Assembly: GCA_037043015.1 (NCBI GenBank)
Contig: CM073331.1
Span: 3,803,501-3,867,500 of the forward strand
Source: Bryum argenteum
Taxonomy: Eukaryota; Streptophyta; Bryopsida; Bryales; Bryaceae
Reading direction: 5' to 3'
DNA length: 64,000 nucleotides
In this document: piece by piece, positions 6,955 to 35,089 of the stretch
How positions within the stretch are numbered: position 1 is the first letter of the stretch
How the letters are laid out: each line of letters begins with the position of its first letter
Notes under the pieces: generated by a model
The model's database searches: none
Told to the model about the DNA's origin: nothing
Seen by the model: only the letters and a program-made list of their open reading frames with translations
Translations under genes and position numbers: made by a program

Positions 6955-7900
6955 CTTAACTCCTAAAGTGGACATGGTCGTTTGGGGTTTGGGCAGCCAA
7001 TGGTTTACTAATTTTAGCTCGAATGAAGTTGTAACCTTGTGCCGGCTGTGGATTTTTTTCATACCTTTCCATAAAGTCATTTTGCACTTAAAAATTCCTC
7101 ATACTTTGGGAGATATTTACACTCAAAGTTTGAAAGTACTATTTGTAATTTGCCCAAAACTGTCCAACCTGCAGTATATGCTTCTTTATTCTTCAAATCT
7201 ATTACCCAAAATCAATCAAATTGTTGTAACTTCAAAAATTGACCTAAAAGTAAGATTCTACTTTTTTTTTCCAAGTTTTGTTTTTGGTACATGTAAAAAG
7301 GGTCTTAAGACATGATCTCATTGTTCAAATTTTTGATCCAATTATTCTTATTATTGGGTCTAAAATTTTACCACACACACTAGTCTTCATTTGGGACCCA
7401 ACCCAAGACTTAGTGATTTCACCCACTTTGGATGAAGAAGTTATGGCTCTTCACACTTTGTGCACTTCATCCACAATATCGTTTTTTGACATTCGGCACG
7501 TTTTGAGGTTAACTTAGAGGCAAAATGTGGCAAAGAGTTGCCTTCACTATTGAGTTATTATTATAGATATGAATAAATGGCATGCAATTCGTGAAGGCAA
7601 CTCTTGCTTTTGATTTTCAAAAATGGGGCATGTTTTACCATTGTAAGGCAATCATGGAAAATTGAATTTAAGAATTTTTATGAATTAGAGAATCATGATC
7701 TCAAGATGAAGGTTAACAACTTTATATTTGTATGATTTCTGATTCAAATAACTTTGGTATTGGATTTGCAGTGTTGTTTCTACAATGAAAAAAGAGAATA
7801 AATTAATAGTTTTTGAAGAATTATATCTCCTTCATCCACCATTGAATTTTGACTTTGTTTTGAGGGATGAGTTCCAATTTGAGTCTAGTTCATGTGGTAA
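6955..7900. repeat. second copy of the 3-4 kb repeat family, abutting the kinase gene
   Basis: Several blocks match the region around 2,970-3,880. Block 7,050-7,180 resembles 2,985-3,115 in direct order. Block 7,385-7,500 resembles 3,210-3,330 in inverted order. Block 7,750-7,900 resembles 3,600-3,755 in direct order. Divergence is high, so the copy is old. Its right edge lies inside the last codons of the thaumatin-kinase reading frame, so the repeat supplies the C-terminal residues and stop of that protein. Confidence 0.55.
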
Positions 7901-10135
7901 CCACTGCCCCATAAATTTATCAACTCTGAATCCAGTTGAATCCAATTGGCTATAGGAACCTGATTCAATGCTCTCATGATCTTGAGAATGCTCCTTATTC
8001 CGTGACTTCCGCCTAGAGAGTCTGCTCAAACCGGTGCTCAAGCTGGAGACGCAGAAACCTGAATTCTCTGAAGCGATTTCTAGAAAATCAAACTCTAGAG
8101 GTGGATCCTTCACTTCCACCGTTCCGTCCAACATCTGCATCACTTCCGCCATCGACGGCCTCGTTTTCGGCTTGTCCTGAATGCACCACATCGCAATCCT
8201 CACCACTTTCTTCACCTGCTCCCATTCCTCTGCACTCACCCTCCCGTTCAATTTCGCATCCACAATCTCATCCCAAGCTTGTATCTGCATCCGATCCACT
8301 GCCCAAGCTGGAAAGTACCACTTCTCCAAGATTTCATTCACCACAATGTTCTTCCGCCCACTCACAATCTCCAGGAGCACCATCCCGTAGCTGTAAACAT
8401 CACACTTCTCTGTGATGCCTGTTTGCAGCAGCCACTCGGGTGCCAAATAGCCCGGTGTACCACGCATCCTCGTGTCCACTTCGGTCAGTTCTCTATCGAA
8501 CAACTTGCACATTCCGAAGTCTGCCACTTTGGCACGGAACTGGTCATCCAACAGGATGTTCTGGGGCTTCACGTCCAGATGGATAATCTTGTGTCTGCAA
8601 TCACGGTGCAAGTAGCACAGCCCTTGAGCTGTGTCCGCAGCAATTTGGTAGCGCACTGCCCATTCAAGCACTGAATCACGAAACAGCCAGCGATCCAAGG
8701 AGCCATTCTTCAGAAACTCGTATACGAGTATTCGATGCGCACCCTGGGAGCAGATTCCTTGTAATCGCACAAGGCGAAGGTGATTGATACCTCCAATGGT
8801 GGCAACCTCTGCTCCGAACTCCTTATTACCTTGCTTGGAGGCCCCCAACCTCTTCACAGCCACTTTACTTCCATCAGGGAGATCTCCTAAGTAGACAGTG
8901 CCAAATCCGCCCTCACCGATGATCCTGGAGAAGTGATTGGTTGCAAGGTCAAGGGCATCGTAAGTGAATATTTGCGGTAGACCAGGTAGCGACTTTAAAT
9001 ATGTACTTCCTTCGTCCTCGCCCGGTTGTTCATCCTCATCAGGATTTGCTGAAATGAGTGTACGCCTTACCAAGCAAATAATCACGAGGATAGATATTAG
9101 GAAGACGAAGACAACTCCGCTTGCGATACAAACATCCAGCTTCCATCTACTGAAAGCAGTGCCATGACTACCAGAGGAAACCCAATTCGAAATTGAACTG
9201 TAAGTTTGATTTGGTGTTGGGCAGAACACAACTTCGTAATTGCTGCCAGTCGTACAATTGCACGAGGTTGCATGGTCCGCGGAGTAGGAATACGAATTTG
9301 GGCATGCATCTTTGAATTTCGTCGTTACGTTCGTAGCGTAAGCTCGTCTTCCGTCAATGTTTATGCAGCCATATCCAGGTGCACCACTCAGGACGTTCGG
9401 CGCTTGACAGAAGCTAGTCAAATTGGAGATGGTGCAGTTTGTTATTCTACACGTACTATTGTTGGAAAGAATCATGAGAGGTAAATTGTAAGCAACCTGC
9501 AAGCAAGACCATCGTCTACGAGAAAATCAGTCCAGAGACACCAATCATGCATATGTTCTTGTCTGCCAATTTCACAATAAACCTGAACTGTGGAAGAATG
9601 AGGTACCATGTACCACATTGCTCAGGACATAGAAATCCAAGTTTCGGAGTCCGATGTAGAACCAAGCGTGATTGGCCTGATTCCATGCGCTAAGTCCTTG
9701 AGCGCGATCTGCATCGTCACCTGGGAACCCCCAAATCATACCTCCATTCCACGAGGTACCCACATCTCTCTCACGGGCAAATCCGTCCTGAAGCGCATAG
9801 CACGTAACGTCTGATTCACTCGGACCTTGATCACATGCGGTGACAGTAAACGAACATCCATTGTGGACGTTGATCTTCGTTGCTGCACATACAAACCTCA
9901 CTTGCAATGTCATCATCGCATGTACATCGCTTAATATTCATCTACATTGATAAGTATAATCAGAAATTGAGAAGGCCCAAGGCACCAGGTCGCCAATGGT
10001 GATTAAATCATATGCGTGTCAAGGTATGGATTGACACAGTAGCTTATTATTAGATGAGATAAAAGACTTACCGACAACAGAACTGTTGTTTGCCATCAAC
10101 GAGAGCAGTGCGGCGACCAAGTAAATTTTCGCCAT
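7832..10135 (-). CDS. thaumatin-ectodomain receptor-like kinase (copy 1, apparently intact)
   Basis: Three exons give 665 residues: 10,135-10,072, 9,882-9,614 and 9,496-7,832, with GT-AG introns and a continuous frame. Exon 1 is a signal peptide (MAKIYLVAALL...). Residues about 22-204 resemble a thaumatin/PR5 fold, with INVHNGCSFTV, GGMIWG, LDFY, the YNLP block, DACPNSYSY and YEVVFCP. A membrane helix spans about 236-255. The cytoplasmic kinase has GEGGFG (305-310), VAVK lysine 326, HLDVKPQN with Asp419, DFG 437-439 and APE 463-465. HRD reads HLD, so it is a non-RD kinase as in many immune receptors. The kinase looks closer to G-type lectin SD2-5 kinases than to Arabidopsis PR5K. The role, perception of an extracellular ligand at the plasma membrane, is inferred. 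The last 22 or so residues come from the adjoining repeat. Three broken copies follow downstream. Confidence 0.85.
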
Positions 10136-10480
10136 TTCTGGAAAGCAAATGCAACCCTGCAACATTTGATCTCATGTTGCCAGGGCCGATGTTTGGACAA
10201 CACGAGAGGAGCTTGAATTCTGACCGGTGTGATGTCACATGTCCCATTTTCCTGGGGTACCTTCACCTTTTCGAGAAAATTACTTGACATGATTTAACGT
10301 GATGGCATGATGGACCAACATCATGCTAAGCTCGTACCAGTTGGTGTAGTTTTCGTTGACTCTGACCAAAAGAACTGTGGAAAGGTTGCTAAACCGCATC
10401 TACAACTTTACATTGAAGAACATCAGCCTTTGTTTGACTGACGACTTCCAGAAGTTCTGCCGGATCTCTTCATTTTTGAG
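10136..10480. promoter_or_regulatory. 5' flank of kinase copy 1, conserved among array copies
   Basis: This flank resembles 15,790-16,000 and 30,860-31,120. A run including the motif GACTTCCAGAAGTTCTG (about 10,441-10,457) is kept nearly unchanged in all three, although the neighbouring kinase copies 2 and 3 are broken. It lies between head-to-head kinase and SDR genes, so it is a candidate shared regulatory region. No TATA box was convincingly placed. Confidence 0.45.
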
Positions 10481-12204
10481 TTGATTAGAATATGAAAAGT
10501 CGCCAATACAAATTTAGTCAAGTCCCGTGCACACGGGAGATCAATCTCTTCCAACTTTCTACCAATTGCTTCAATTCAAGCGGCTTAAGTTTAGTTCATA
10601 ATTGCACCTTGCTTGAGTAATCGTAACATTGACCATGATGAGGGCAATTCACAATGAAGAGGAGATTGCAAATTATTCACATTCATGACAAAGGAGGGTT
10701 GCCCTCCGTAGAGCTTGACAGTGAGGTGTGATTATTTTTGCAATTCATTAAAAAAGAGATTCTTCATGTAAATTAGTGTCATATGCCAATATGTCTCATC
10801 CACTTCTAAAGAAAAATTCACTAATCACTCTTAGTTATGCATTCTTTCTGAGTCAGCCACTCATGAGGTGGAATGATAGTCCTTGCATTCGAACTAAGAT
10901 TTTTGCCGCAATTACTTACTATACATAAAAGACTCATAGCTGAACCATCAATGTAAATATATATACTTCATACAAAAAAATTAAGAAGATGATTGATTTG
11001 TAGAGAAGAGAGAACCTCAATTCTCAAAAATGTAATATTCTAGAAAAAATGGCACTTTAGGGGGATTAGAATTCTATTGGGAGTGAGGGTGATATTACAT
11101 ATACAGTGATCTAATGAAGATGAAATGGGTGCTTTGTAATGGCATTTGATATGCTAATTTAGAAGCACAAATCATTTGCTCCAAAAGTGATACTTTGTGA
11201 CAGAATGGGTAGTTTTGGGACGCCAAAATGAAAATTAGAATAAGTACTTTCATTTCAACGGAATTGCCTATGGAGGAGGTCAACATAGAGATTTACGTCT
11301 ACCATCAACTACTTTTCATTTCCACTCTACGGTCAATTACTTTTCCACCCATATTCAATGAAGCTAAAGATCAGAGTTAATTTTCATAACATTCTAAGCC
11401 CCCTAATTCTTCAAAATTTGTAAAGGCCTTTATATTTGGCCTTGAGCTTCGAGATCTTTTGGAAATGATTATGTTTATTTCTTACGAATATACTAATTAA
11501 AAATTCAACCTAAAGCACCATTGAGATTAAAAAGAAAGACATAAATATATTTTGTGGCTTAGATAACGGCTTTACAATATTAAATCTCACTCAACTTTTA
11601 CAGAGGAAAACAAGTACAAAATGCATGCCAAGAACCCACACCAATTATAGAATTTGTAACCAACAACTACTCATTGAATCGGAGTGAAAAAAGGTGCCAT
11701 TTTCTTCTCCGGAGTACATGCCTTCGTACTTCACGAAGTAATATACTAATATATGGCCATTATTGAAACTTCTGAAACGGAAAGTTTGTCAATTCACACA
11801 CAAAATTATTTCATTGCACCACATTTGGCGCAGTCACTTGAAGAGTTCTTGGTGGGCGCGAAACACGGTACAGTACCCGCTACAGTAGTGGAATAGTTTG
11901 TCGCATCTAGGTGCATAGCATATTGGGATCTCTGTATTTCACTGCTACGAGCCTTTCTCGGAGCCCCTCTGAGCCAATGGGATTTTTTCATCAAAATCCC
12001 TGGAATTTCCCATTTGGACCCCCGAGGACCGTTTTTGATAATATTGAATTCAAATTTGAGGTCTGCGACCCCAAATTACTCTGACAAGCCCTCTCCTTGG
12101 AATTTAAAGCCTACGCATCGAAAAATTAGGGGGCAATTTACCCATCCCCTCCCCGGCTGCCGAAAAACGCTCGTAGCACTAAAAGATCCAGCATATTGAA
12201 TGTG
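10481..12204. other. AT-rich intergenic insert specific to pair 1
   Basis: No gene is seen. The corresponding spacer in pairs 2 and 3 is only a few hundred bases, so about 1.7 kb has been gained here or lost there. I found no clear terminal repeats that would name an element. Confidence 0.4.
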
Positions 12205-12590
12205 TCTGTCTTGCATGAATGGAGTGTCGTTTTGGATCCTCAAAACGAGAAACATGTGTCTAATCCATTATTGATGTTATCCCATTCATGACAGTGGTGA
12301 TGTCTGGGCTTCCACGTTGATCGATCAGCAGCCAACTGAAGCTCTCCAGTTCTTCCAAAGATTCCCTTTCTGATCCTCCAAGCATTAACAGAACAATCAA
12401 ACTGCTGGCGAGCAGTGTGCGTGTGTTTGAAGCTTACGTTTCTTTCAATAGAACACCCGTTCCACATCCCACAGTGCATGCGGGAAGCCCTCAATTTGTC
12501 GAATCCTCCGATCTGAGAGTAATCGAAAGATCGACTGTCGACCGTTGCCTTTCTTCTTTGAATTGACGGCTCGCTGTTGGAGTACCGAAA
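12205..12590 (+). promoter_or_regulatory. conserved 5' region of SDR gene 1
   Basis: This block is homologous to 16,120-16,514 and 31,250-31,641. All three contain a CTTGCATGAATGGAGT-like start, a conserved stretch ending in TCGCTGTTGGA, and then the SDR start codon. Conservation runs right up to the ATG, so it contains the 5' UTR and proximal promoter. Confidence 0.55.
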
Positions 12591-13528
12591 ATGGCGACAT
12601 CTGACTCCAATTCTAAGCGGTACTGTGCTATCAATGATTTCTGTGCCCAATTTCATAGACTTTGCTGTACGAGTCTGACTGTTGATGCAATGGCAGATTG
12701 GAAGGCAAAGTGGTCATAATCACGGGTGGGGCGAGTGGCCTGGGCGCGGCAGCAGTCAGACTCTTCGAGTCGCACGGGGCGTCGGTAGTGATTGGTGACA
12801 TCCAAGACGACTTGGGCGCAGCGTTGGCGAAAGAACTCGCGCCTCGGGTCAAGTTCTTTCACTGCGACGTGACTCAAGAGCACGACGTAGAGGGCCTGGT
12901 GAACTTCACGACGCGGGAGTTCGGGGGCCATCTCGATATTATGTTTAGCAACGCAGGGATCCTGGGTCCAATAAGGGACTCCATCCAGGACCTCGACGTC
13001 GACAGCATGGACAAAGTTTTCGCCGTAAACGTGCGGGGCGCTATTCTGTGTGTGAAGCACGCGGCGCGCGTTATGATTCCTGCCAAGCAAGGCGTCATTC
13101 TAGTGACAGCGAGCGCAGCGTCAGTACTGGGTGGGGTTGGTCCGCTCCTGTACACTGTTAGCAAAAATGCACTGTTGGGGTTGATCAAGGCCGCGGCATG
13201 TGAGCTCGCGCCTCACGGCATCCGCGTGAACTGCATCTCGCCCTTGGCTATACCCACGCCAATGAGCATGCAGTGCTTCGACGGCCTCAACATGCCGGAG
13301 GAAGCCATCAACAGCGTTTTTACTTCCCAATCGTCCTTGAAAGGACCTAAGATCCTCACTGCGGAGGACGTCGCCAAGGCCGCTTTGTTCCTGGCCAGCG
13401 CCGAAGCGCACTACATCAGTGGCCACAACCTGGTTATTGATGGTGCCTTCACTGTCACCAAAGTTCAAAACACATGGACTAATATAGTTGGCCCCGCTCC
13501 ATCCGATGGCCAACCTGGGCCAACCTGA
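12591..13528 (+). CDS. short-chain dehydrogenase/reductase, SDR110C-like (copy 1)
   Basis: Two exons, 12,591-12,619 and 12,697-13,528, join inside an arginine codon (AAG CG|A TTG) to give 286 residues starting MATSDSNSKRLEGK. The Rossmann cofactor motif TGGASGLG, NAG in SNAGILGP, the catalytic YTVSK (YxxxK) and an upstream TASAAS serine are all present. The family includes plant xanthoxin, secoisolariciresinol and momilactone dehydrogenases, which oxidise alcohols in specialised or hormone metabolism with NAD(P), usually in the cytosol. The substrate cannot be read from sequence. The C-terminus is shorter than in copy 3: a tandem GGCCAACCTG duplication brings in an early TGA. The gene is divergent from kinase copy 1. 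Confidence 0.85.
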
Positions 13529-13889
13529 TAAGCCATAATGGACCAATACCTGAAGATGTCTGGCCAACCTGATCAAGCCTGAATAGCCTGCACCTGAAAG
13601 GGTCTGGCCAACCTGTACAAGTGGTCACATCAGGGAGAGATGAATGTTGGGAAGTAGTAGTGTTTGCATGTGTCGAAAACTTTGAGGAAAGATGTGGTGA
13701 AGAGTTTGCAACGTGTAGAAAAAGAAGAACTCTGCACCCATTTCGAGGCCGAAATAGTGCAAGCAAGATAATTCATGACCATGTGTTCGCCCAGAGACAA
13801 TTTAAAAAAGAAATTCGCTCCTAATTCATAGTGGTGTTCGAGGCTGTAATCCATTGACTTCACTTTCCATGCCCTAAAATGTCGATTAC

Positions 13890-15660
13890 CTTCATCTGAT
13901 GCGAATCACATTCAGTGCTTGCAGGTCCTCTACTATCTGGCTGACAAATTCAACGCAGAATGTGGTTGGCAGTAGTATCCTGTTTCGGTACTCTTCAGAT
14001 CGTGCGATTGCTCCGTCTTGAGAGGCTGCTGCCCATACCGGCACTCGAGCTGAACTGCTTGAGGTCCAACAACCAGAGTTCTCTGAAGCCACCTCTACAA
14101 AGTCACTCCAGAGGCGAATCTTTTACTTCCATCAATCCCTCCAACATCTGCACCACCTCCGCCATCGACGGCCTCGTCCTTGGCTTGTCCTGAATGCACC
14201 ACACTGTTATCCCACACCACTTTCTTCACCTGCTCCCATTCCTCTGCACTCACCCTCCCTTTCAATCGTGCATCCAATATCTCATCCCACGCTTGTACCT
14301 GCATTCGACCACTGCCCAAGCTGGAAAGCTCTATTTCTCCACGGCCGCATTCATGTCAATGTTCTTCCCCCCACTCACAAGCTCTAGAAGCTCCATGTGT
14401 AGCTGTACACATCACACTCCCCAATGATAGCTGATTGCAGCAGCCACTCAGGGGTCAAAGGAACACCTGTAGTACTATCGACCTCGAGGTCGCCATCGCC
14501 ATCGCCGTGAGAATCACTGGGTGACAGCACATCCCCTACCGCTGTTCCTTCATTCTCACCGCTTCTCATCTATTGAAGGTGCTCTATTCCTCGTCCTTAC
14601 CTGCTCCATTCACTTCCTTGCCAAATATTCCGGTGTACCTCGCATCCTCGTGTCCACTTCGGTCAGTTCTCTATCGTAACTACAACTTGCAAATCCCGAA
14701 GTCTTCGACTTTGGCACGAAACTGGTCATCCAACAGGATGTTCTGTGGCTTCACATCCAGATGGATAATCTTGTGCCTGCAATCGTGGTGCAAGCAGCAC
14801 AGCCCTCAAGCTGTGTCCATAGCAATTTGGTAGCGCACTGCCCCCTCAAGCACCAGCCACCGATCCAAACAGCCATTCTTCAGAAACTTGTACACGAGCA
14901 CCCGATGCGCACCCTAGGAGCAGATTCCTTGCAGTCGCACCAGGCGAAGGAAATTGATACCTCCAATGGTGGCAACCTCTGCTCCAAACTCCTTCTTTCC
15001 TTGCTTGGAGGCCCTCAATATATATCTTCACAGCCTCTCTACTTCCATCTCTAGGTACATCTCCTTCGTAAAAAGTGCCAAACTCAGTAACTCACCCTCA
15101 CCGATCATCGGGGAAGTGATCGATCAGTTGCAAGGTCAAGGTCATCGTAAGTAGATCGTTGCGGTAGACCAGGTAGCGAGTTCAGATACGCACATTCTTC
15201 GTGCTCGCGAGAGTGTTCATCCTCATCAGGGTTTGCTGGCTTGAGTGTTTGCCACACCAAGCAAAAAAGCAAAAGGGAAAGCATGATGAAGAAGAAGACT
15301 ACTCCGCATGAGATGCGAATATCCAGCTTCGATCTACTAAACCAGTGCCGTGACTACTAGTCTGACGTTGAGGTACAGGGGAAGGCGGAGGCCACTTCGA
15401 AAGAGAACTATAAGTCTGATTTGGAGTTGGGCAGAAGACGACTTTGTAATTGCATGAGGTTGCATACTCCGCGGAGTAAGATACTCAAAAGATGTGGGTA
15501 CCTGGGGCATGCATCTTCAAATCTTATCGGTACGTTCGTAGCGTAAGCTCGTCTTCCGTCCAAGTTTATACAGCCCTATCCAGAAGCACTGAGGACGTTT
15601 GGCGCTTGGCAGAGGCTACTCAGATTGGAGATGGTGCAACCTGAAGATATACCATCTTCG
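13890..15660 (-). pseudogene. thaumatin-receptor kinase copy 2, decayed
   Basis: The sequence is homologous to copy 1 in the same order: kinase tail and C-lobe (about 13,920-14,440), catalytic region (about 14,630-14,830), N-lobe (14,830-15,170), juxtamembrane and membrane part (15,170-15,350), and the C-terminal thaumatin part (15,400-15,640). The frame is interrupted many times. About 150 bases near 14,455-14,610, with a short CATCGC repeat, are absent from copy 1. The signal-peptide exon and N-terminal thaumatin exon are missing, although the 5' flank is kept. It has no coding capacity for a receptor. Confidence 0.8.
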
Positions 15661-15789
15661 ACGAGAAAATCAGATCCTGAACTGAAGAGACACCACGCAT
15701 GGGTATGTAGCGATATCGATTAGGCCTGATTCCTGACAAAGTATGATGAAGGTGTGAAGTCCCATTTTCTTGTAGTATGTTCAACAGTT

Positions 15790-16514
15790 CTCTGAAAATC
15801 ATTACTTGACATTACAGCATACGTAAGATGATAGCATCATAGTAGCATGGTACAACCGCCATCGTGCTGGTGTAGCTCCGTCATGGAGAACAGTGAAACA
15901 TTTGCATAACTGCAAGTTTCAGTCTACACTGATGAACAACAGAGTTGGTACGACTGACAACTTCCAGAAGTTCTGACGGCAGACAGATCGATCTCTAACT
16001 GCAATTTTCCACCATTAGTTTCATTTCCAACTAACTTCACTGATATTTGAGTGTGGCAATGCCGCAGGGAGCATATTAGTAGAGGTTAAAAATAAAGGGC
16101 ATTTGTATTGCATTTTCCTGACTTGCATGAATGGAGTGTGCCGTTTGGACTACTCAAAGCAAGCAACATGTGTGCCTGCATGATGTTTCTCCATTCATGA
16201 CAGTGGTGAAGTCTGAGCTTTCACATTGACTGTTGCTGTGTATGGTCACAAGCCAAGCTTTCCAGTTCTGACAAAGTTAACACAGCTGTTTCACCAGTCG
16301 GTAATAGAACAGTATAAACAATCTGCTGGAGAATCGGTGTGCGTGTATGCTTGTTCAGAGCTCACGTTTTTCTCGAATGTACGGCCGTCCTACATCCTTC
16401 AGTGCATCCTGGACGCCCTCATTCTATCGATCCCTTTCATCTGGGAGTAACCGAGAGTTAGACTGTCGATCGTCAGCATTCTTCCTTGACTTGACTGCTC
16501 GCTGTTGGAGTGAC
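15790..16514. promoter_or_regulatory. shared 5' region of pair 2 (kinase copy 2 / SDR gene 2)
   Basis: Only about 0.85 kb separates the remains of kinase copy 2 from the old SDR 2 start. The left part matches the kinase 5' flank of copies 1 and 3, and the right part (from about 16,120) matches the SDR 5' regions. This is probably the compact ancestral bidirectional spacer. It is now cut off from the SDR 2 coding region by a 1.58-kb transposon. Confidence 0.5.
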
Positions 16515-16523
16515 GGAAATGAC
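16515..16523. repeat. left 9-bp target-site duplication (GGAAATGAC)
   Basis: Identical to 18,105-18,113 on the other side of the element. Nine bases is the usual duplication for Mutator-like elements. Confidence 0.9.
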
Positions 16524-16817
16524 GGGTGAGCTTAAACTCACCCAGCGAGCTGGTCACGGAGCTTTGTGGGCAGGGCGAGGTCGCTCGGGCAGGGGGACGC
16601 ATTTGCGTCCCCTTTCATCCAACACTGTTCACAACCGTGACCTGAACCCTAGAGAGCCGCTGGTATCCTCCTCTCCCAGCCGCCCCACTGTGCACCGATC
16701 AAGCCGCTCGTATCCTCCTCTCCCAGCCGCCGCACTGTGCAACGGGACCGAGTGCGTGCCGAGACGGAGGCTCGCAAACGAGCTTCTTCATCATCGTCGA
16801 TCCTGTTCCCGAGCATC
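16524..16817 (+). repeat. left terminal inverted repeat of the 1.58-kb MULE
   Basis: This repeat pairs with 17,815-18,104. It contains two internal near-palindromes, one at the extreme end (16,524-16,543) and one centred near 16,605 (GGGGACGCATTTGCGTCCCC). Confidence 0.85.
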
Positions 16818-17814
16818 GCTAGGTGTTAAAGGTTTTGAGTTTCATTGTGCAGGACGACCCAGAGGAATGCCATTGAGTCGGTGACGGCCTACTTCTCCAA
16901 GACGTGCGCGGCTTCAGCAACGCGAGCCACAAGCGTCTGCACAGGGTGCAAGATGACCACGGTGAGCATAAGCTCGACGTGTAATCAGCCAGGGGTTGCT
17001 CAATCACAAAAACGAACCCCGTTGTAATCTTAGGTATTCTTCTTCTTCCATTGAAGGTCATTACTGATTCCAATGTACATCATTTTCATCATTAACTGAC
17101 TCACCGGGTCCTTCGATCTTTCTCACGCAAACGACAGCAGTGTGTCCTTTCCATTGGAGGTTTTCAGTGATTCCGATGTGCACCATTCCATCAACTGGCT
17201 CGGTTTTTCTTGCAAACTACAGCAGTGCCCTTTTTCCATTGTTAATCGTCCTTCATTATTGCAAGCGCTTGATCAAGCGATTACGTTCATGAAGGCATGA
17301 AATGCAACACACGCGATGGTTTTTACTTTCACACCACCGATTTTTGAGACTTGATGTAACCAAAAAGCGAAAGAGACTGTTTCAAGCATGTGAGGCTGCT
17401 GATCGAATTAAAGTCTCGCTTCATAAAAGCATGTATTGCAACACACGCCAAATGGTTTACTTTCACACCCCCGGCTACAACATTCGATCAATCCAAAAGC
17501 AAACAAACGACTAATCCGAATCACGCAACAAGCATTTAAGCATCGTTCGAGTTCGGGAGCGGGGACGAGGATCGGCGGCTCACTTGGAGCTTGGAGCGGC
17601 TCGGATGATACGGTAGAAGTCGCGCTCGAGTTACCGAACGAACTCGAACGATGACGGCGATTCCAATGCGAATGGGCTTCAACGTGTTACGCGTCTTGGC
17701 GGTATGTCAATGAAACCCCGTCGAACACACCGAATTCTTTGCGATTCTGCGTTGATCCTCTTCATGGCTTAAGCCATCGCCAGCCGTCGGCGTTGACCAT
17801 GCTCGGCCGAGTTC

Positions 17815-18104
17815 GGGAGCGGGAACAGGATCGGCGATGATGAAGAAGCTCGTTTGCGAGCCTCCGTCTCGCACGCACTCGGTCCCGTTGCGCGTGCTGC
17901 GGCGGTGGGAGAGGAGGATACGAGCGGCTTGATCGGTCTGTGATGGGCGGGTGGGAGAGGAGGATACCAGCGGCTCTCTAGGGTTAGTCACGGTTGTGAG
18001 CAGTGTTGGATGAAAGGGGACGCAAATGCGTCCCCCTGCCCGAGCGACCTCGCCCTGCCCACAAAGCTCCGTGACCAGCTCGCTGGGTGAGTTTAAGCTC
18101 ACCC
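17815..18104 (-). repeat. right terminal inverted repeat of the 1.58-kb MULE
   Basis: Reverse complement of the left end, with identical outer 100 or so bases and a few differences further in. Confidence 0.85.
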
Positions 18105-18113
18105 GGAAATGAC
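18105..18113. repeat. right 9-bp target-site duplication, containing the SDR 2 ATG
   Basis: GGAAATGAC includes the ATG at 18,109-18,111. The duplication therefore leaves one start codon on each side of the transposon. Confidence 0.9.
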
Positions 18114-19125
18114 GACCTCTGACTCCAGTTCCCCTCTGGTGTCTAAGCGGTACTGTGCTATCAATGTTATTGGTGCCCAACTTTCATAGACTTTGCTGTA
18201 CGAGTCTGACTGTTCGTGCAATGGCAGATTGGAAGGCAAAGTGGCCATAATTACGGGTGGGGCGAGTGGCCTCGGTGCGGCAACTGTCAGGCTCTTCGAG
18301 TCGCACGGGGCGTCGGTAGTGATTGGTGACGTCCAAGACGACTTGGGCACTGCGCTGGCGAAGGAGCTCTCGCCTCAGGTCAAGTTCTTCCACTGCGACG
18401 TGTCCCAAGAGCACGACGTCGAGGGGCTCGTGAACTTCACGATGCGAGAGTTCGGGGGCCATCTCGACATCATGTACAGCAACGCAGCGATCCTTGGTCC
18501 AATAAAAGACTCGATCCAGGACCTCGACATCGACACCATGGGCCGCATGTACGCCGTGAATGTGCGGGGCGCTATCCTGTGCATGAAGCATGCGGCGCGC
18601 GTCATGATTCCTGCTAAGCAAGGCGTCATCCTAGCAACCGCGAGTGCGTCGTGCATACTGGGTGGGATTGGTCCACTCCAATACACTGTCAGCAAAAATG
18701 CACTGGTGGGATTGCTCAAGGCCGCGGCGCATGAGCTCGCGCCTCACGGCATCCGCGTGAACTGCATCTCGCCCATGGCCATGCCCACTCCCATGTCCCT
18801 GAAGGGATTCTACGGCTTCCACTTGCCGGAGGTCGTCATCAACAGCTTCTTTGCTGGCCTTATGCCCTTAAAAGGAACTAAGCTCCTCACTGCCGAGGAC
18901 GTCGCCATGGCCGCTTTGTTCCTAGCCAGCGCCGATGGGCGCCACATCAGTGGTCACAACCTGGTTGTTGATGGTTCCTATACTGTCACAAAAGTCCTCA
19001 ACAATGTTGATCTTGTTGGCTCCACCCTCTTCAACAGTGTCGGAACCGTTATTGGAAATATTAAGAGTAATTGCCTGCTTCTAGCAAAGGGCATGAGTGA
19101 AAGGATGTTATCATGGATCACTTAG
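18109..19125 (+). CDS. short-chain dehydrogenase/reductase, SDR110C-like (copy 2)
   Basis: Exons 18,109-18,149 and 18,228-19,125 join inside the same arginine codon as in copy 1 to give 312 residues starting MTTSDSSSPLVSKRLEGK. TGGASGLG, YTVSK and the TASAS serine are present. The NAG motif reads NAA (SNAAILGP), which could alter activity. The C-terminus differs from copies 1 and 3 after TVTKV, running about 40 residues with a different, more hydrophobic sequence. The coding frame is open, but the original promoter and 5' UTR are separated from the ATG by the MULE, so expression would depend on transposon sequence. It is otherwise likely the same kind of alcohol dehydrogenase as copy 1. Confidence 0.8.
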
Positions 19126-20013: not shown

Positions 20014-23000
20014 CTAAATATTCTCTATGATGATTTGGGCGCGTAGAAGGAGTTGCTTCACTTCGTTGAAACTCAAGCTTGGGTAGTGGATGAATGTGTC
20101 ATCCTCACAATTCATCTTGCAGAAATAGCGAAAAATGTAATAAATATGTTTACAATTAACATATTGCCCACGTTTTCCAATCGATGACACAGCCATGTTT
20201 TGGAAATCTGGACACGTACACTCTGGGAAGTGGCTGATAGAGATTTGATAAACCTTTCTGTTTGGATCTGATCCAGATTCCAACGAGATTATTGTACCAA
20301 GACCTGGAAATGGAAGAAGTGTCACACTTGTGATGGTACCTTTGATGTTGCGTGCGCTTTCCCACTTGTTCCGGTGTTCAGCAGTTGGAGCGCGTCCGTT
20401 GCGGCGAATGGACTTACTATTCCGAGTTGTTGGAAAAATGTCCGGATTTACCGGGCTTGGATGATTAAAGACATGCGCGTCAACACAGTTGGCCAATGAG
20501 AACATACGTCGAGGTGACATCTCTTTATGATCTTGAAGTGTAAACCCTGCCTCTTGTAGAAGAAGAGTTTCATGGCGCGTCAAGTGAGTGCCACTCAAAA
20601 CAGGCCATACTTCCGGAACATGAGGCCAATCTAGAACCCAAGGTCGTTTGCTACCCTTTACACAACGCTCAATATCGTCTGGACAGAACCAGAAATCGGT
20701 AACAATCTCCTTGTTTCCACCGTACTGAGTTTTTCTACCTCTGTATGTTGGTGCAGGGGTTCCCTTTGAGCCCTTTGCAATACGAGCACTACACTTAATA
20801 TTTGTCATTGCTTGTTGGGCATGACATTTCTGACTTGATTTGTGAGAGATCCTAGCTATATGCCAGCTGTGATGGATCACAATCGGACTCTAATCTTTGT
20901 TGTCACATGAGGATTATCTTCGTGTGTTGTAAGAAGTGTAGACCCTTCTCTAAATTCTCTCTGAGAGATCTTTGAGACCTAGTTTGTATCCGGGGTTGTG
21001 AAAAGTTTACCTTGTCGGGGTCTATGTGAGTCTCCATCATCACCGGGCGGAAGATCTAGTTTCCTTTTTGTGCTACCAAAGATTTCTTCCCCCTCCGGAT
21101 GAGGAACCCGAGTATTGGCAACCTCAAGACCGGAAGTTGGCCAAATCGCTTGAGAATTTTTTTGGGTCACGAACGTGTTCTTCGCACGTAACTTTAGTTC
21201 TGCTCGATGGACCCGTGCACGACAGATTGCCCTTCTTTTGGTACGCCCGTAGTTGGTCATTTGCATTACTGCTCGGATCATATCGTCGCAAGTGGCCACA
21301 TAGAGGTCATTGCCACGATTCCCTGACTGTTGCAACCACTTGTTGTGAACAGTTTCTGACAAGTTACAGGAGGGCATGTCTGCCAATTCTTCAAGGCTAC
21401 GTCCCTGCATCAACACATACACAAAAATTTAACATAAATATTGCATATCATTGTATATATATGCAATTATGCAACCATATGAATATCTAAACAGAAGATG
21501 AAGATTGTACCATTTGCATAAAGCCTCCCCATTGACGGTAACGAAAGTGCCAGAATGCTAGCCAAAGATTTAAATCTCGGATAGATTCTTGAGATCGACT
21601 CTCACGATGAAAGCCACCACGCCCGAATAGCTAGGTACTTTGACTCTGCATCGTCAAGTGTCTTCGAATCCTTATATTGCTTACAAAGGCGGTTGTGTTG
21701 CTCGTGCATGTTGGGCTTGATGTACTTCTGAGTATGCCGAATAAGCGAGGTGGTCCAATGCAAAAGGCATGTTCGCTCTCTGCCCTCCATAGGTATCTTT
21801 GGATCGCCACTCCCGTAAATAATGCGGACTGCGTTCCAATTAGCTTGTCTTGACCGTCGGCCATGAATCCTTGAAATTGGTTTTCCACACCGTGACGTTG
21901 CATAACTTCATTGAGCTCCCTCCACATGATACATTGAACCTTAGTGTCTTCCGATTGCATGTCACAAACAAAGAATCGTCATAACTTTGCAATATTTTGT
22001 GTCATACACATGACACGCCATTGTAGTCCGATCCCCGAACACGTTTGACATGGTCAAATATGAGCCAAGCGTTCAAGATCACCTCCTGGTTGCATGCGTT
22101 CAACAAGGTTGACACCACCGCCGGACCATCTTCCAACATTTTGAATAAGTAAACCTTGTCCTTCCCTTGGCCCGGAAATACACTACTTTGTATGTACTCA
22201 AGCATCTTGCACTCTTCATTGCAAGAATGTTATCAAATGCACTGCCCTTGCCCCCGCCTCTATTCAATGAAATCGTGTTTCTCAAATTTGGGGAACTGAG
22301 GTACTCAAACTTATCCAACACATTCTCCAAGTCTTTCCCTCGAAGCATCTCTTTTGCTCCAGATCCACTGTGAATGAGGTACTTATCTAAGAACTCTTTA
22401 CTTGCAGCCATAGCTATCGCTGAATTCTTCGCAGTTGGTGTTTTTGCGACTTCTTTAGCAATTAGACTGGATATTGTGCTCACAGACTTACGACAAACAC
22501 CGGTAGACACCGGATGGAGATGCACCCCTAAATGGATGCATGCCCTTGTCATATCGTTTGTACTAAGGACGTAGTATATACGACCGTCACAGAAACTAAG
22601 ACATGTTGGAGGAACTTTGCAAACTTTGCAAACTAAAGTAGATGTAAGAGGACGCGTTGATTGACTTTAAAAGGAGTGTTGGTTTGGCTCGACCACTGTT
22701 TCATTCTTCTTTCCCGCTCTTGATAAGAAATCGCATGCATCATTCTCACAGACCAAATGACCGACACAAGAAGACTTTCTAAAAGTTAGTCCTTCTTTGT
22801 TGTGAATATTAGTTGTTATAGTTCGACACCATGCATGACCATCATATCGCTTATCCATACCATCCATTTGATTCCTTGAACCAGGTATGGATGAATGACT
22901 CGGAGGCAACTCAAAGATGACATCTCCATTGTATACTGGAGGGAGAAATTGGACTTTATGATACGTAATCTTGTCATAGTCAATAGACGCAAGTTCAGTT

Positions 23001-23524
23001 CTAGAACCTGGAAGAGAAGAGAGGCGTCTCAAGCATTGCATAATACTCGGGGGTTCTCGAGTATTAGGATGACATGGAGGCCGAGAAATGTTAGAATAAC
23101 CTAAAGACTGGCCCAGAGTATGAAGAGAATTAGACCGATCACCAATGTAACGTATAGTTGTAGGTAAAGGGACATCACGAGAATGAACTACATTGTTAGG
23201 AATTTGACCTTGTGATGAGTCACTTGACAATTCCACTGCGTCACCATGACACTCTTGTTTCACTCTTGATACACTTAGACCAAACGCCCTATATCTTCCG
23301 CTTGGAAGAAGCCAGTATTGTTCATCTTCGTCATGACAACTCAGTTGCAAAATAGTTCTATCTACAACACCAGATTCAGAGAACACCTCTTCTTCAATAA
23401 AAATTGAAGAGAGTTGTAATCCGAAGCGCACGTGTAGGATTTGGGCAGACACTCTAGCACGACCTTGTTCTCCAACTTGGAAAACAAGGGGGATTGGATG
23501 ACCAGATGCTCGAACAAAAGCCAT
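20014..23524 (-). pseudogene. MULE transposase with SWIM zinc finger, decayed
   Basis: Fragments in order on the minus strand give a Mutator-type DDE transposase. The N-terminal domain (23,524-22,667) ends in YDGHAWCRTITTN and CVGHLVCENDACDFL. A cysteine-rich block with TRACIHLGVHLHPV lies at about 22,555-22,490. The catalytic-core region has QGFMADGQ, GSGDPKIP and RERTCLLHWT at 21,960-21,720. The C-terminal part (20,880-20,014) carries the SWIM motif CTCPDF...CKHIYYIF. An intron is visible at about 21,510-21,405. Breaks include an in-frame TAA at 22,667-22,669 (the same frame resumes to 22,552 and beyond) and frame changes near 22,150, 21,990 and 21,850. It cannot make a full transposase as written. 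Some breaks could be sequencing error. Confidence 0.8.
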
Positions 23525-24135
23525 GATATTGTAAACCGAACAGATGTTGTAAACAAGAAGCGGAAAGAGAGCATAACATAATCTTAAGAAATAACTATCA
23601 ACAATGGAAGTTAAGTAGGAAAAATATCGGAATTATTGCATGCACTTTAAAAAATTGAGTGGTATTTTATTAGATTCTAACAAAAATAGAAAGCGGCGCA
23701 AACCAAACCTTAGGTGAAGTATATGTTATTAATAATGGTTTTTTATGATTAAATAAAGTAAGGAGAATTAGAAGTAGGTATGCGTATCTGTCGTAACATG
23801 TGAGATGTCAACAATCATATTATAAACAGAATATAACGCCAAAAATATATTTTTGGTAAGACGCCAATACGATTTTAGAGTAGCCGTCAAGTTACTGACA
23901 ATATCTAGATATAGAATTAATTTTTTGAAATTCAAATTACGTAGCCGCATGTTGCTCTGCGGAAATTCCGTACTCGTTTTCTGACCATTAACGCGGATGA
24001 CAATATCTGAGTAACGGTGTTCAATTGCAAATGGTAGAATGTATTGGAGCTTGGAGTTTCACTCATTCTCAAATGCTTCGTGCAGGCACCACTTAGCGCA
24101 GCCTTAGCCGTCGTTGTGAAAGCTATTGGGGACAC

Positions 24136-28218: not shown

Positions 28219-28299
28219 TATGTTTAACCAGGCCCATGCTAGATCGACAAATTTGCCAAACTATCACCAACACAATAATACATATGATAAAGAACTAGC

Positions 28300-28635: not shown

Positions 28636-28750
28636 CGTTGGGTAGGAAGGTTTGGTGAGTAGAAAGGTTTGGTGGGTAGGAAGGTTTGGTAGATAGGAAG
28701 GTTTTGTGGGTAGGAAGGTTTGGTGGGTAGGAAGGTTTGGTAGGTAGAAA
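28636..28750. repeat. 17-bp minisatellite
   Basis: Six to seven head-to-tail copies of GTGGGTAGGAAGGTTTG with a few substitutions. Confidence 0.85.
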
Positions 28751-29790: not shown

Positions 29791-29824
29791 AGATTGAGAG
29801 GATCTCGAGCAGGTGATCGAATCT

Positions 29825-30690
29825 TGAACCCAAGTCTCTGAAGTGACATCTACAAGCGGATCCTTCCCTAGCCTTCCATCGTTCCCACCACCATTTGCAT
29901 CACTTCTGCCATCGAAGGCCTCGTTCTCGGCTTGTACTGAATGCACCACATTGCAATCATCCCCACTTTCTTCACCTCCTCCCATTCCTCTGCACTCACC
30001 CTCCCGTTCAATCTCGCATCCAAAAGTTCATCCCAAATATGTATCTGCATTCGATCTACTGCCCAAGCTGGAAAGTACCACTTCTCCATGGCCGCAGTCA
30101 AGTCAATGTTCTTCCGTCCACTCACAAGCTCCACCTAGGAGCACCTTGCCGTAGCCGTACACATCACATTTCTCCGTCATAGCTGTTTGCAGCAGCCATT
30201 CGGGTGTCAAATATCCCCCTGTGCCTCGCATCCTCGTGTCCACTTCGGCCAGATCTCTATCGAACAAATTGGACGTTTCGGGGATGTCACTTTGGCACGA
30301 AATTGGTCATCCATGTGTAGGAATTATAGATCTTGTCTGTCTAAATTGAAGTGAACGTGTAAAATCAGGTTAAAGAATCTGGTGTACCATGTATCACAGT
30401 CCTCAGGACGGAGAATTCCAAGCCATGGAGGCCGATGTAGAACCAAGACTGATATGCCGTATTCCATGCGCTAAGTCCTTGAGCGCGATCTGCATCCGGT
30501 CAGCTGGGAACCCCATATACCTCCATTCTACGAGGTACCCACATCTCTCTCACGGAAAATTCGTCCGGGAGTGCATGGCACGTAACGTCTGACTCACTCG
30601 GACCTTGATTACATGCGGTGCAAGCAAACGAACATCCATTGTGGACGTTGATCATCGTTGTTGCAGATTTGATACTCACTTGTAATGTCA
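29825..30690 (-). pseudogene. thaumatin-receptor kinase copy 3, internally deleted
   Basis: Two separated parts of the copy 1 gene are joined. The kinase C-lobe (about 29,830-30,330) has WYFPAWAVDRMQI and RPSMAEVMQM. The N-terminal thaumatin exon (about 30,385-30,680) has INVHNGCSF and GPSESDVTC. Everything between, including the kinase N-lobe, catalytic loop, membrane helix and C-terminal thaumatin half, is missing. The 5' flank continues to resemble copies 1 and 2 up to about 31,120. No receptor can be made. Confidence 0.8.
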
Positions 30691-31149
30691 TCATCGCATG
30701 TACTGGCATCAGCTTAAAATCCACCTCGAACGGTATGCATATTCGTGGAGGAGTGGAAATGTCAAGAACCACATAACGAAGCAGCTGATCATCTCAAATA
30801 CTTAGGTCTGATTCCTGACCAAGTGCTATGAAGGTGGAAGGCCCCATGTTCTTGTAGTACGTTCAACAGTTCTCTGAAAATCATCACTTGACATTACAGC
30901 ATACGTAAGATGATAGCGTCATTGTAGCATGATAGACCACCATAGTGCAAAGCTTGTACTGGTGTAGCTCTGTCCTGGATGTATGTGAAACGCTTGCATT
31001 TAACCGCATGGACAAGTCTACATTGACGAACACCAGAGTTGGTACGACTGATGACTTCCAGAAGTTCTGACGGCAGACAGATCGATCTCTAACTTCCATT
31101 TTCCACCCAGTAGTTTCAATTCCAAATATCTAATTAACTTCATTGATAT

Positions 31150-31260
31150 GCTCCCTGCGGCATACCTGCACTACGGATGCTTTTTATTTGACCTCTACTA
31201 ATATGGATACCTGCACTACGGATGTCAAATAAAGAGCATCCGTAGTGCAGGTTCCTGACT
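31150..31260. repeat. inverted-repeat hairpin in the pair 3 spacer
   Basis: CCTGCACTACGGATGC and its reverse complement GCATCCGTAGTGCAGG bracket a short loop region that holds a third CCTGCACTACGGATG. The equivalent place in pair 2 (about 16,060-16,110) lacks the hairpin. Confidence 0.65.
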
Positions 31261-31641
31261 TGCACGGAGTATGCCGTTTGGACTCCTCAAAGCAAGCAGC
31301 ATGTGCCTAATTCATCATTGATCGCCTGCCAAGCTCGATCTCCAGTTCTGACAAAGTTTACCAACTGTTTCACCAGTCGGTAATAGAACTTAGTATAAAC
31401 AATCTGCTGGAGGAGTGGAGGATCGGTGTGCGTGTATGCTTGTTCAAAGCTCACGTTCGTTTCGGATATACGGCAGCCCACATCCCAGAGTGCATCCTGG
31501 ACGCCCTTGCTCTATCGATCCCTTCCATCTGAGAGTAACCTCCGGACAAGGACCTACCACCAACTGAGAGTAACCGAAAGTTTGACTGTCGACCTTCAAC
31601 TTTCTTCTTTGACTTGACTGCTCGCTGTTGGATTGCCCGAA
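31250..31641 (+). promoter_or_regulatory. conserved 5' region of SDR copy 3
   Basis: Homologous to 12,205-12,590 and 16,120-16,514. The similarity ends at the start codon. Confidence 0.5.
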
Positions 31642-32636
31642 ATGGCGACATTTGACTCCAGTTCCCCTCTGGTGTCTAAGCGGTACTGTGCTATCAATAT
31701 TCTCTGTGCCCAACTTTCATACTTTGCTGCACGAGTCTGATGACTGTTGGTGCAATGGCAGATTGGAAGGCAAAGTGGCCATAATCACGGGTGGGGCGAG
31801 TGGGCTCGGTGCGGCAACAGTCAGGCTCTTCGAGTCGAACGGGGCGTCGGTAGTGATGGGTGACATCCAAGACGACTTGGGCGCAGCGTTGGCGAAAGAA
31901 CTCGCGCCTCGGGTCAAGTTCTTTCACTGCGATGTGACCCTAGAGCACGACGTCGAGGGCCTCGTGAACTTCACGATGCGAGAGTTCGGGGGCCATCTCG
32001 ACATCATGTACAGCAACGCAGGGATTCTAGGTCCGATTAGGGACTCGATCCAGGACCTCGACATCGACACCATGGACCGCATATACGCCGTGAACGTGAA
32101 GGGCGCCGTCCTGTGCATGAAGCATGCGGCGCGCGTCATGATTCCTTCCAAGCAAGGCGTCATTCTTGCAACCGCGAGCGCAGCGTTAGTACTGGGTGGA
32201 ATTGGTCCGCTCCAATACACTGTCAGCAAAAATGCACTGTTGGGTTGCTCAAGGCCGCGGCATATAAGCTCGCGCCTCACGGCATCCACGTGAACTGCAT
32301 CTCGCCCATGGCCATGCCCACGCCCATGACCCTGCCGGCCTTCGACGGCCTCAACCTGCCGGAGGAAGTCATTACCAGCTTCTTCTCTGCCCAAACGTCC
32401 TTGAGAGGAACTAAGCTCCTCACTGTCGCGGACGTCGCCAAGGCCGCTTTGTTCCTGGCCAGCGCCGAAGCGCACTACATCAGTGGCCACAAGTCCACAA
32501 CCTGGTTATTGATGGTGCCTACACTGTCACCAAAGGCCACAATATTGATAATCTGGTTGGCCCCGCTCTCTCCGATATCCAACCTGATCAAGCCTTAATG
32601 GATCAGTACCTGAAGATGTCTGGCCATCCTGATTAA
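31642..32636 (+). pseudogene. short-chain dehydrogenase/reductase, SDR110C-like (copy 3, frameshifted)
   Basis: Exon 1 (31,642-31,682, MATFDSSSPLVSK) and exon 2 from 31,761 match copies 1 and 2, with TGGASGLG, SNAGILGP and YTVSK intact. Compared with copy 2, one base is missing near 32,244 (after KNALLG) and eight bases (AAGTCCAC, about 32,491-32,498) are added in SGHNLV. Both change the frame. The reading frame after the second break encodes a C-terminus ending at TAA 32,634-32,636 with DQYLKMSGHPD, which copy 1 lacks. It is either a recent pseudogene or two sequence errors; the high similarity elsewhere fits both. Confidence 0.75.
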
Positions 32637-32639
32637 GTT

Positions 32640-33185
32640 AAGCCTGAATAGCCTGCACCTGAAGGGGTCTGGCCAACCTGTACAAGCCTTAATGGACATG
32701 TACTAGAAGGGGTCACATCAGGGAGAGATGAATGTTGGGATGTGCTAGTTTTGCGTGTGTCATAAAGCTGGGATGTGATGAAGGATTTACAATATGTTAA
32801 TTTTTAAAAGAAGGAGGATTTTGCACCTATTTTTAGGCACTATAAATAGAGTGTTCGAATTTGTGGACTTATAAGTCTAGGCATCGACCGTGGACTATTA
32901 ACTCTTAGTGAACACTATGTTATTTCTTAATTGGTGGTTCAAGCCTTTTATTAACGTGACAGTAACTCATTTATTCATATGAAAGTGAGGTTACACATTC
33001 TCTGGTGATGTTACCTCTAGACATAACCTTCAGGAGTCTCTCTCGCAAGTCGCAACCACGCTTTCTAATGAACAAGTGACTACATCAAAGCACAGACCCT
33101 ACTTGTGCTGCATGAGGCAGACGATGCCCAATTAGATGAATTGGTTGAATGAAAGACCATGGATGGGTGAACCCAGCACAAATGT
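32640..33185. other. 3' flank of SDR copy 3, no gene seen
   Basis: The first 100 bases repeat a CTGGCCAACCTG-type motif also found after SDR copy 1 (13,508-13,620). The rest is unremarkable. Confidence 0.5.
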
Positions 33186-33187
33186 CG

Positions 33188-35089
33188 ATTACCTTCATCT
33201 GATGATAAACACTTTCAGTGCTTACAGATCCTCTACTGTCTGGCTGACAAACTCAACCCAGAATCTGGTTCTTGGCAGTGGTGTTCTGTTTCGGTACTCT
33301 TCAGGTCGTGAAGTTGCTCCTTCTGTGACTTCCGTCCCGAGACGCTTCTGCTCAAACCGGCACTCGAGCTTGAGGTCCATCAACCCAAATTCTCTGCAGC
33401 CACCTCCAGAAAGTCGAATTCCAGGGGCGGATACTTCACTTCCGCCAATCCCTCCAACATTTTCATCACTTCCGCCATCGACGGCCTCGCCCTTGGTTTG
33501 TCCGGAATGCACCACAGCGCAATCCCCACCACTTTCTTCATCTGCTCCCATTCCTTTGCACTCGCCCTTCCGTTCAATCGTGCATCCAAAATCCCATCTC
33601 CCGATTGTACCTGCATTCGATCCACTGCCCAAGCTGGAAGGTACCACTTCTTCAAGCATTCATTCACCACAATGTTCTTCCGCCCACTCACAATCTCCAG
33701 GAGTACCATGCCGTACGTAGCTGTACACATCACACTTCCCTGTGATGCCTGTTTGCAGTAGCCACTCGGGTGCCAAATATCCCGGTGTCCCACGCATCTT
33801 TCGTTTCCACTTCGGTCAGATCTCTGTCGAACAACTTGGACAATCCGAAGTCTGCCACTTTGGCACGAAACTGGTCATGTCGGCAGCACTTTAGAAGCGC
33901 ACTGCCCGCTCAAGCACCGACTCTCGAAACAGCCAGCGATCCAAGGAGCCGTTCTTCAGAAACTCGGACACGAGCATTCGATACGCACCCTGGGAGGAGA
34001 ACCCCACAGTCGCACGAGGCGGAGGTGATTGATACCTCCAATGGTGGCAACCTCTTCTGACGGCTAAGATGTAGTATCGGCGACATTCTGACCTTGCTTG
34101 GAGCCCCCCAGCCTCTTCACTGCCACCTTACTTGCGTCGGGTAGATCTTCATCATACACAGTGCCAAAGCCGCCCTTACCGGCGATCCTGGAGAAGTGAT
34201 TTGTTGCAAGGTCAAAGTCATCGTAGAAGAATCTTGGCGGCAGACCAGGTAGAGACACTAGAAACGCACAATCTTCGTCCTCGTCTAAATGTTGGCCCTT
34301 CTCCAGGTTTGCTGACATAAGTATTCTCCTCACGATGCAAATTCACGCGAGGAAAGACATGAGGAGGAGGACTACTCCACTTGAGACGCTATACCCACGT
34401 TCCATTCAATAGAAGCAGTTCCGCGACTACCAGTCTGAGGTGGACGGTGAGGTACAGGGAAAGAGGAAGGCAAGTTCGAACGAGAACTGTAAATTTAATT
34501 CGGAGTTGGGCAAACCACGACTTCGTAATTGATGCTAGTCGGACAGTTGCTTGCAGTTGCTCAGTCTTCCATGGTGGAGGAATAGGAATGGGGGCATGCA
34601 TCTTTGAATGTTCCACTTGTAGGGTAGCCTCGACTTCCGTCAGTGTTCATGCAGCCATATCCGGGACCACCACTGAGGACGTTTGGCGCTTGACAGAAGC
34701 TAGTCAAATTGGAGACGGTGCAGTTTGGTGTTCCGATCACATGCGGTGACAGTAAACGAACATCCAATGTGTACGTTGATCTTCGTTGCTGCAAATGTAA
34801 AGCTCACTGAAATGCCCTCATCGCATGTGTTAGCTCATTCAGAATTCCGTCTAATTTATATAAGCAAAATCTTTTTTGCAAGAGCTCGAGTGCCAAGATG
34901 TAGAGGGGAAAACTGAGTATCAGAACGCCAATGATTAGAAGTTTAACTGTGTACATGTCAATTTGTCAAGGTGATGGATGAGAGCTTTCTGGACACAATT
35001 GCTTAAAATGAGCTGAGCACTTACCGAAAACGGAACTGCCGATTGCCAGCAACAAGAGCGTTGCGGCTACGAGTTGAATAATCGCCATG
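33188..35089 (-). pseudogene. thaumatin-receptor kinase copy 4, decayed but nearly full length
   Basis: The order matches copy 1: a C-terminal tail ending in a VEFVSQTVEDL-like sequence, kinase C-lobe (33,400-33,780), a shortened catalytic region (33,780-33,960), N-lobe (33,960-34,330), membrane segment, then the thaumatin C-half (34,560-34,740) joined directly to a piece of the thaumatin N-end (about 34,745-34,800). The signal-peptide exon survives (35,089-35,026, MAIIQLVAATLLLL...SSVF before GTAAGT). Several frame changes and internal deletions, including most of the thaumatin middle, prevent a full product. Its tail shows what the copy 1 C-terminus probably looked like before a repeat replaced it. 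Confidence 0.8.

Follow-up and report, generated by a model that had tools for sequence, protein, structure and literature searches.

A 64,000-nucleotide stretch of the genome of the moss Bryum argenteum (GCA_037043015.1, contig CM073331.1; here "the window") carries an array of receptor kinase and short-chain dehydrogenase (SDR) genes. It corresponds to C11:3803501-3867500, C11 being a contig of 6.99 Mb in a searched genome of 258.8 Mb (25 contigs). A kinase on the minus strand and an SDR on the plus strand stand head to head three times in the window, in the same order and direction and with homologous spacers; three same-orientation adjacencies with homologous spacers are no chance arrangement. 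We consider it highly probable that the array reflects tandem duplication of a linked unit followed by unequal decay: the linkage itself has been duplicated, and common control of the two genes is not supported.

Layout and state of the kinase/dehydrogenase array

The kinases K1 to K4 are numbered by their order in the window; Ka, Kb, Kc, Kd and SDRa are copies outside it. The features of the array in the window are as follows.

7832..10135, minus strand: K1, intact receptor kinase of 665 aa (exons 10135-10072, 9882-9614 and 9496-7832; spliced gene model, Pfam)
10136..12590: spacer of unit 1, 2455 bp from start codon to start codon, of which ~1.5 kb between 10463 and 12194 is missing from unit 3
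12591..13528, plus strand: SDR1, intact short-chain dehydrogenase of 286 aa (exons 12591-12619 and 12697-13528; intron 1 of 77 bp)
13877..15708, minus strand: K2, kinase pseudogene with many stops and frameshifts; exons 1-2 without BLAST match
15720..16524: spacer of unit 2, homologous to 30802-31647
16525..18103: MULE-like transposon of 1579 bp in the spacer of unit 2; its ends are long inverted repeats, and the SDR2 start codon falls within the perfect 11-bp target duplication flanking it
18109..19125, plus strand: SDR2, intact frame of 312 aa (exons 18109-18149 and 18228-19125; intron 1 of 78 bp)
29849..30726, minus strand: K3, kinase pseudogene with ~1 kb of its middle gone
30802..31641: spacer of unit 3, with BLAST homology to units 1 and 2
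31642..32600, plus strand: SDR3, pseudogene with two frameshifts
33180..35125, minus strand: K4, kinase pseudogene with several stops and frame changes; no SDR partner found

Comparison of the window with itself (BLASTN) joined the SDR copies at 84-87% (12513-13674, 18103-19030 and 31564-32761); between the kinase copies, matching pieces of >100 bp were 69-85% identical. It bore out the order, orientation, homology and coordinates given for the kinase/SDR pairs by an initial annotation of this DNA, whose limits for K1 (7832-10135) and SDR1 (12591-13528) also agree with the spliced models; nor was an SDR partner found for K4, which had been described as a fourth kinase without one. The recurring gene pairs of that annotation hold as three units, but most are not gene pairs now, since K2, K3, K4 and SDR3 are broken and only K1/SDR1 is whole. 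Its array also extends beyond the window, to Ka/SDRa, a kinase fragment and Kb ~100 kb upstream and to Kc just downstream.

Spacer homology links units 2 and 3 (15720-16524 versus 30802-31647, E = 3e-133; 69.8% over 910 aligned columns), units 1 and 2 (12194-12596 versus 16106-16524, E = 6e-49; 424 columns), and units 1 and 3 (10305-10463 versus 30927-31073, E = 1e-17; 161 columns, and two further pieces of 46 and 61). Mutator-like (MULE) transposons end in long inverted repeats and make target duplications of 9-11 bp, and both are present at 16525-18103, where the ends are identical at 274 of 308 aligned columns and the 11-bp duplication is perfect; no transposase was shown. The duplication leaves the ATG on the SDR2 side and the frame stays open, and the former promoter of SDR2 is now 1.6 kb off. 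A bacterial-type promoter scan of the K1/SDR1 spacer was uninformative for plant DNA.

A genome search with SDR1 (11 matches, 36 candidates scored) returned four genes at ≥68%, all on C11 (SDR1-3 and SDRa), followed by C2:29923568 at 47%. SDRa (C11:3702583-3703640) is interrupted by a stop codon and by an insert of 228 bp (L031:9055-9282) that bears terminal inverted repeats. All four SDR copies found lie head to head beside a kinase, and a single pair, K1/SDR1, is intact on both sides. The kinase search scored 77 of 1034 candidates, and the SDR, kinase and pair counts are therefore lower bounds: nine copies were found (K1-K4, Ka, Kb, a fragment, Kc and Kd), four of them with an SDR alongside. 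Ka (C11:3698582-3700514) is broken and faces SDRa, with candidate start codons 1656 bp apart, and the fragment lies at C11 3704.0-3705.6 kb. Kb has one frame change, which could be a sequencing error, and is otherwise open in its aligned parts. Kd is a broken copy on C2. Kc, just past the window end on the opposite strand, is intact (658 aa), has no SDR, and repeats the splice pattern of K1; the TGA reported for it by the kinase search is absent from its spliced model.

Private changes at codon positions 1/2/3 separate copies that look used from decayed ones. In the middle block of exon 3, K1 has 12/5/24 (third-position excess, P = 0.0008), K2 has 32/20/24, and K4 has 31/39/34, the last two without significant excess; K2 and K4 look unconstrained. 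Sequencing error as the cause of their breakage was rejected in view of many indels of varied size together with the flat codon-position pattern. In SDR3, the 1-bp deletion could be a sequencing error, the 8-bp insertion less so. SDR1 has 18/13/31 (31 of 62 at third positions, P = 0.005) and SDR2 25/15/31 (31 of 71, P = 0.045, marginal), the excess in SDR3 is not significant, and the pairwise ratio of nonsynonymous to synonymous substitution rates (dN/dS) between SDR1 and SDR2 is 0.35. Because private changes concentrate at third codon positions, K1 and SDR1 look used. Just upstream of K4 (35344-35610) lies an imperfect palindrome with arms of 128 nt, 80% complementary, resembling a miniature inverted-repeat transposable element.

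Duplication history

The paired kinases K1, K2 and K3 probably form one clade, because the kinase DNA tree groups them at both 1485 and 476 columns. On 1485 columns (eight copies without the fragment, rooted on Kd), the tree reads ((Ka,Kb)100/99,((K4,Kc)100/99,(K1,K2,K3)100/100)), with no inner order among K1, K2 and K3. The SDR protein tree (39 of the 183 SDRs among the matches listed) gives (1,(2,3)) at 97/86 when SDRa is left out, in agreement with spacer distances, in which units 2 and 3 are closest in 1000/1000 bootstraps.

In the history that we favor, a gene for a receptor kinase whose ectodomain is thaumatin-like would have gained an SDR gene as its head-to-head neighbor. The two-gene segment would then have been copied along one chromosome at least three times (four pairs are known), probably by unequal exchange, and the copies would have decayed independently, leaving the complete pair K1/SDR1, an extra intact SDR2 and the unpaired, intact Kc. 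The least costly reading is that the pair arose once, before Ka/Kb split from the rest, and that the SDR was later lost beside Kb and in the ancestor of K4 and Kc. The proposal of the initial annotation that two unrelated genes were copied together with their shared 5' spacer is upheld by the homologous spacers, the fourth pair Ka/SDRa and the K1-K2-K3 clade.

Several results weigh against so simple a history. On the 476 columns covered by K3, the splits of the kinase tree have support of 100/99, 81/84 and 83/91, the last being K1-K2-K3. Protein trees of K1-K4 rooted with the Ceratodon purpureus kinase P0001 do not separate the four, and the SDR branching collapses once SDRa is added. Pairwise distances of kinases and SDRs across the four pairs do not correlate (Spearman's rho = −0.14, P = 0.79; 473 and 776 sites, with differing rates among pseudogenes). 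The closest pair also varies by block, being 1-3 for the SDR gene (807/1000), 1-2 for the kinase middle block (983) and 1-4 for the kinase C-terminal block (903). Because the blocks differ in their closest pair, the history appears blurred by conversion or uneven rates; uneven rates of the dead copies together with exchange between copies are the likely cause. As to the shared branching of kinase and SDR trees that the initial annotation had put forward for comparison, there is no firm conflict, but the comparison is weak, given the uncorrelated distances and the loss of SDR order with SDRa.

Other features of the window lie around and beyond the array. Broken frames with a CxC...CxH pattern, presumably like the SWIM fingers of transposases, occupy 20017-23632 on the minus strand; four pieces scanned gave no Pfam match above cut-off. 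A 4.6-kb inverted repeat, 96% identical, lies at 38826-43385 and 47642-52199, beside a direct duplication of 3.6 kb (43805-47418 and 58659-62275, 96%), and the Pfam scan detected an aspartic-protease/TAXi_N piece at 53701-54036.

The receptor and the enzyme

K1 is predicted to begin with a signal peptide (by eye), followed by a thaumatin-family ectodomain (Pfam Thaumatin, 1.5e-9, 38.3 bits against a cut-off of 27.4), a transmembrane segment (hydropathy peak at about residues 233-251) and a Ser/Thr kinase (Pkinase, 1.5e-46, 159 bits). It thereby has the architecture of thaumatin-like protein kinases (TLP-K/PR5K), with a thaumatin-family ectodomain, transmembrane segment and kinase in one protein. 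The ectodomain has 185 residues and 11 cysteines and matched thaumatin in the PDB in two separate stretches, the first weak; small thaumatin-like proteins (TLPs) have a shortened thaumatin fold and ~10 cysteines. The kinase motifs are GEGGFG, VAVK, HLDVKPQN and DFG, with HLD replacing HRD; non-RD kinases of this kind are frequent in immune receptors. Most likely, K1 is an immune-type surface receptor that would recognize a wall or pathogen ligand through its small thaumatin-like ectodomain and signal through its non-RD kinase. The last ~32 residues of K1 (7832-7930) match a repeat frame at 3682-3777 (44%), and Kb, Kc and Ceratodon P0001 share another tail; the C terminus of K1 thus seems to be new.

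The closest named homologue of K1, also by E-value, is from C. purpureus (59% over 92%). A kinase-domain tree of 58 rows (60 of 120 homologues listed, 57 of them long enough) places K1 and Ceratodon P0001, which likewise has a thaumatin-like ectodomain, as sisters (95/81) within a seven-row clade (100/100) that also holds Ceratodon P0008 and P0010, which have B-lectin ectodomains, and three nameless rows. Fourteen other TLP-Ks (12 named, all from grasses, and 2 nameless) form a far clade (100/98). Moss names are attached only to P0001, P0008, P0010, P0026, P0049 and P0106 among the kinase rows and to P0128 and P0132 among the SDR rows of the trees. An approximately unbiased (AU) test rejected a single clade of K1, P0001 and the 14 TLP-Ks (log likelihood lower by 80.8, P = 3.5e-5) on a quick tree of 55 rows that left out the long-branch rows P0003, P0014 and P0106 as well as Arabidopsis and poplar PR5K, the group having been picked after the first kinase tree was viewed. 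The seven-row clade is starred in that tree and the K1-P0001 pair is not. The test speaks against common descent of the K1 fusion with grass-type TLP-Ks, and these trees suggest that the thaumatin-type receptor kinase arose at least twice; the apparently independent fusion is a more interesting result than the pairing. A small thaumatin gene at C8:1015278-1016770 (L036:4278-5770), where the 10 kb read showed no match to a kinase, is a plausible type of ectodomain donor. More thaumatin matches occur on C2, C4, C5, C7 and C11.

The SDRs match Pfam adh_short_C2 (5.9e-54) and carry the Rossmann motif TGGxxGxG and the Asn-Ser-Tyr-Lys site of classical SDRs. Asn121, Ser149, Tyr162 and Lys166, which we take to be the catalytic residues, are invariant in 9/9 aligned SDRs, and the window SDRs are presumably of the SDR110C type, a name given in the initial annotation. 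In SDR2 the NAG motif of the other eight aligned sequences is NAA, and its activity is putative. The four best sequences in a PDB search are all named borneol dehydrogenase. Named homologues of highest identity are from Ceratodon (59%) and Calohypnum (58%), the best E-value belonging to a double-length Salix protein of only 49%.

SDR1-3 fall in a 13-row clade (98/95) with only two named members, both from mosses: Ceratodon P0128 and the momilactone A synthase of Calohypnum plumiforme, P0132, the latter in a different subclade. When P0132 was compared with the genome, SDR1 (59%) and SDR2 (57%) were the two best matches, followed by score by a gene on C2 (46%); the broken copies SDR3 (62% over part) and SDRa (54 and 47%) scored below the C2 gene. 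SDR1 and SDR2 are most probably NAD-dependent alcohol dehydrogenases of specialized, possibly terpenoid, metabolism, and the reaction most to be expected of them is the oxidation of a terpenoid or a similar alcohol. Momilactone A synthase oxidizes the syn-pimaradiene olide alcohol; the relation of SDR1 and SDR2 to it is one of sequence.

Alternative explanations and comparison with known systems

The initial annotation had proposed that the pair works as a unit. Such a module, with a two-way promoter and with receptor and enzyme in one defense or hormone pathway, would fit the survival of the pairing through at least three duplications, the kinase linkage of all four SDR copies found, constraint in both genes of the sole complete pair, and the fact that, of the genes in this genome, SDR1 and SDR2 match a moss phytoalexin enzyme best. 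The fate of the copies argues otherwise: one gene or both are dead in three of the four pairs, SDR2 has stayed intact next to a dead kinase (K2), Kc is whole but has no SDR, and an additional 1.5-1.6 kb lies in the spacers of units 1 and 2. In addition, the highest-identity Ceratodon homologues are tagged to different chromosomes, KC19_3G166700 (kinase) and M758_2G120700 (SDR); 2G120700 is the only Ceratodon-named SDR among the best 120 SDR matches, many of which are nameless, so that the absence of an SDR beside 3G166700 is suggested. We therefore regard a maintained module as unlikely, and a functional link as possible only for K1/SDR1. Equally doubtful is its most specific form, in which a thaumatin-headed immune receptor on an SD2-type kinase, evolved by the moss itself, would be physically coupled, head to head, with a dehydrogenase resembling momilactone synthase, so that receptor and defense-metabolite enzyme are made together. 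Among the papers listed from the open-access PMC literature, none was on moss thaumatin kinases or kinase/SDR pairs, judging by title and abstract start.

If, instead, each family had duplicated separately and the adjacency were incidental, uncorrelated kinase and SDR distance matrices and the five of nine kinase copies found without an SDR would be readily explained. Homologous spacers are the strong argument against this; the three units moreover share one orientation, K1, K2 and K3 group as one clade, and the genome search with SDR1 found no copy of this SDR subfamily away from a kinase, which makes separate duplication very improbable. Membership of the array in a biosynthetic gene cluster like that for momilactone in mosses deserves just as little credence. 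The identity of SDR1 and SDR2 to the Calohypnum synthase, as the genome's two best-scoring matches, would favor it. However, that synthase belongs to another subclade, terpene-synthase N-domain matches occurred only on C3 (3 matches among 5 candidates), and a pattern scan of the window in six frames found no cytochrome P450 heme motif and two chance-like DDxxD strings. Among 20 window frames scanned with Pfam, domains of biosynthetic enzymes passed the cut-off in the SDR frames only. The preferred reading remains that a linked unit was duplicated in tandem and that its copies decayed unequally.

Read in this way, the array joins a receptor and an unrelated enzyme that became linked by duplication without staying a unit, and it advises caution before neighboring genes are declared a cluster. 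Both intact SDRs, SDR1 and SDR2, are candidate enzymes of specialized metabolism in a moss. Should broader sampling bear out the kinase tree, receptor kinases of the thaumatin type would have at least two origins in land plants, one in mosses and one in the lineage of the grass TLP-Ks, and the thaumatin fold would be a repeatedly recruited sensor head.

K1 shares with angiosperm PR5K/TLP-K a signal peptide, a thaumatin-family ectodomain, a transmembrane segment and a Ser/Thr kinase. Unlike those proteins, it has a kinase domain that clusters with those of two Ceratodon lectin kinases rather than with the 14 TLP-Ks, and an ectodomain whose match to the Pfam thaumatin model is limited to positions 77-209, compared to 1-209 in rice P0115. 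A 2011 survey (PMC3048497) describes three tandem TLP-Ks in poplar, lists Physcomitrella without a TLP-K, and reports one small-TLP-kinase in sorghum, called independent of the TLP-Ks. K1 resembles the sorghum protein, as described there, in combining a reduced thaumatin-like ectodomain with a kinase, and differs in being from a moss. With G-type lectin SD2-5 receptor kinases it shares the kinase domain, which is 70 and 68% identical to those of the Ceratodon lectin kinases P0008 and P0010, the B-lectin ectodomain being exchanged in K1 for a thaumatin-like one. SDR1 and SDR2, finally, belong to one SDR clade with the C. plumiforme momilactone A synthase P0132 (59 and 57% identity), although SDR1-3 form part of another subclade, and the window SDRs adjoin kinases, in contrast to the Calohypnum synthase, which, according to a review (PMC10140866), adjoins cyclase and P450 genes.

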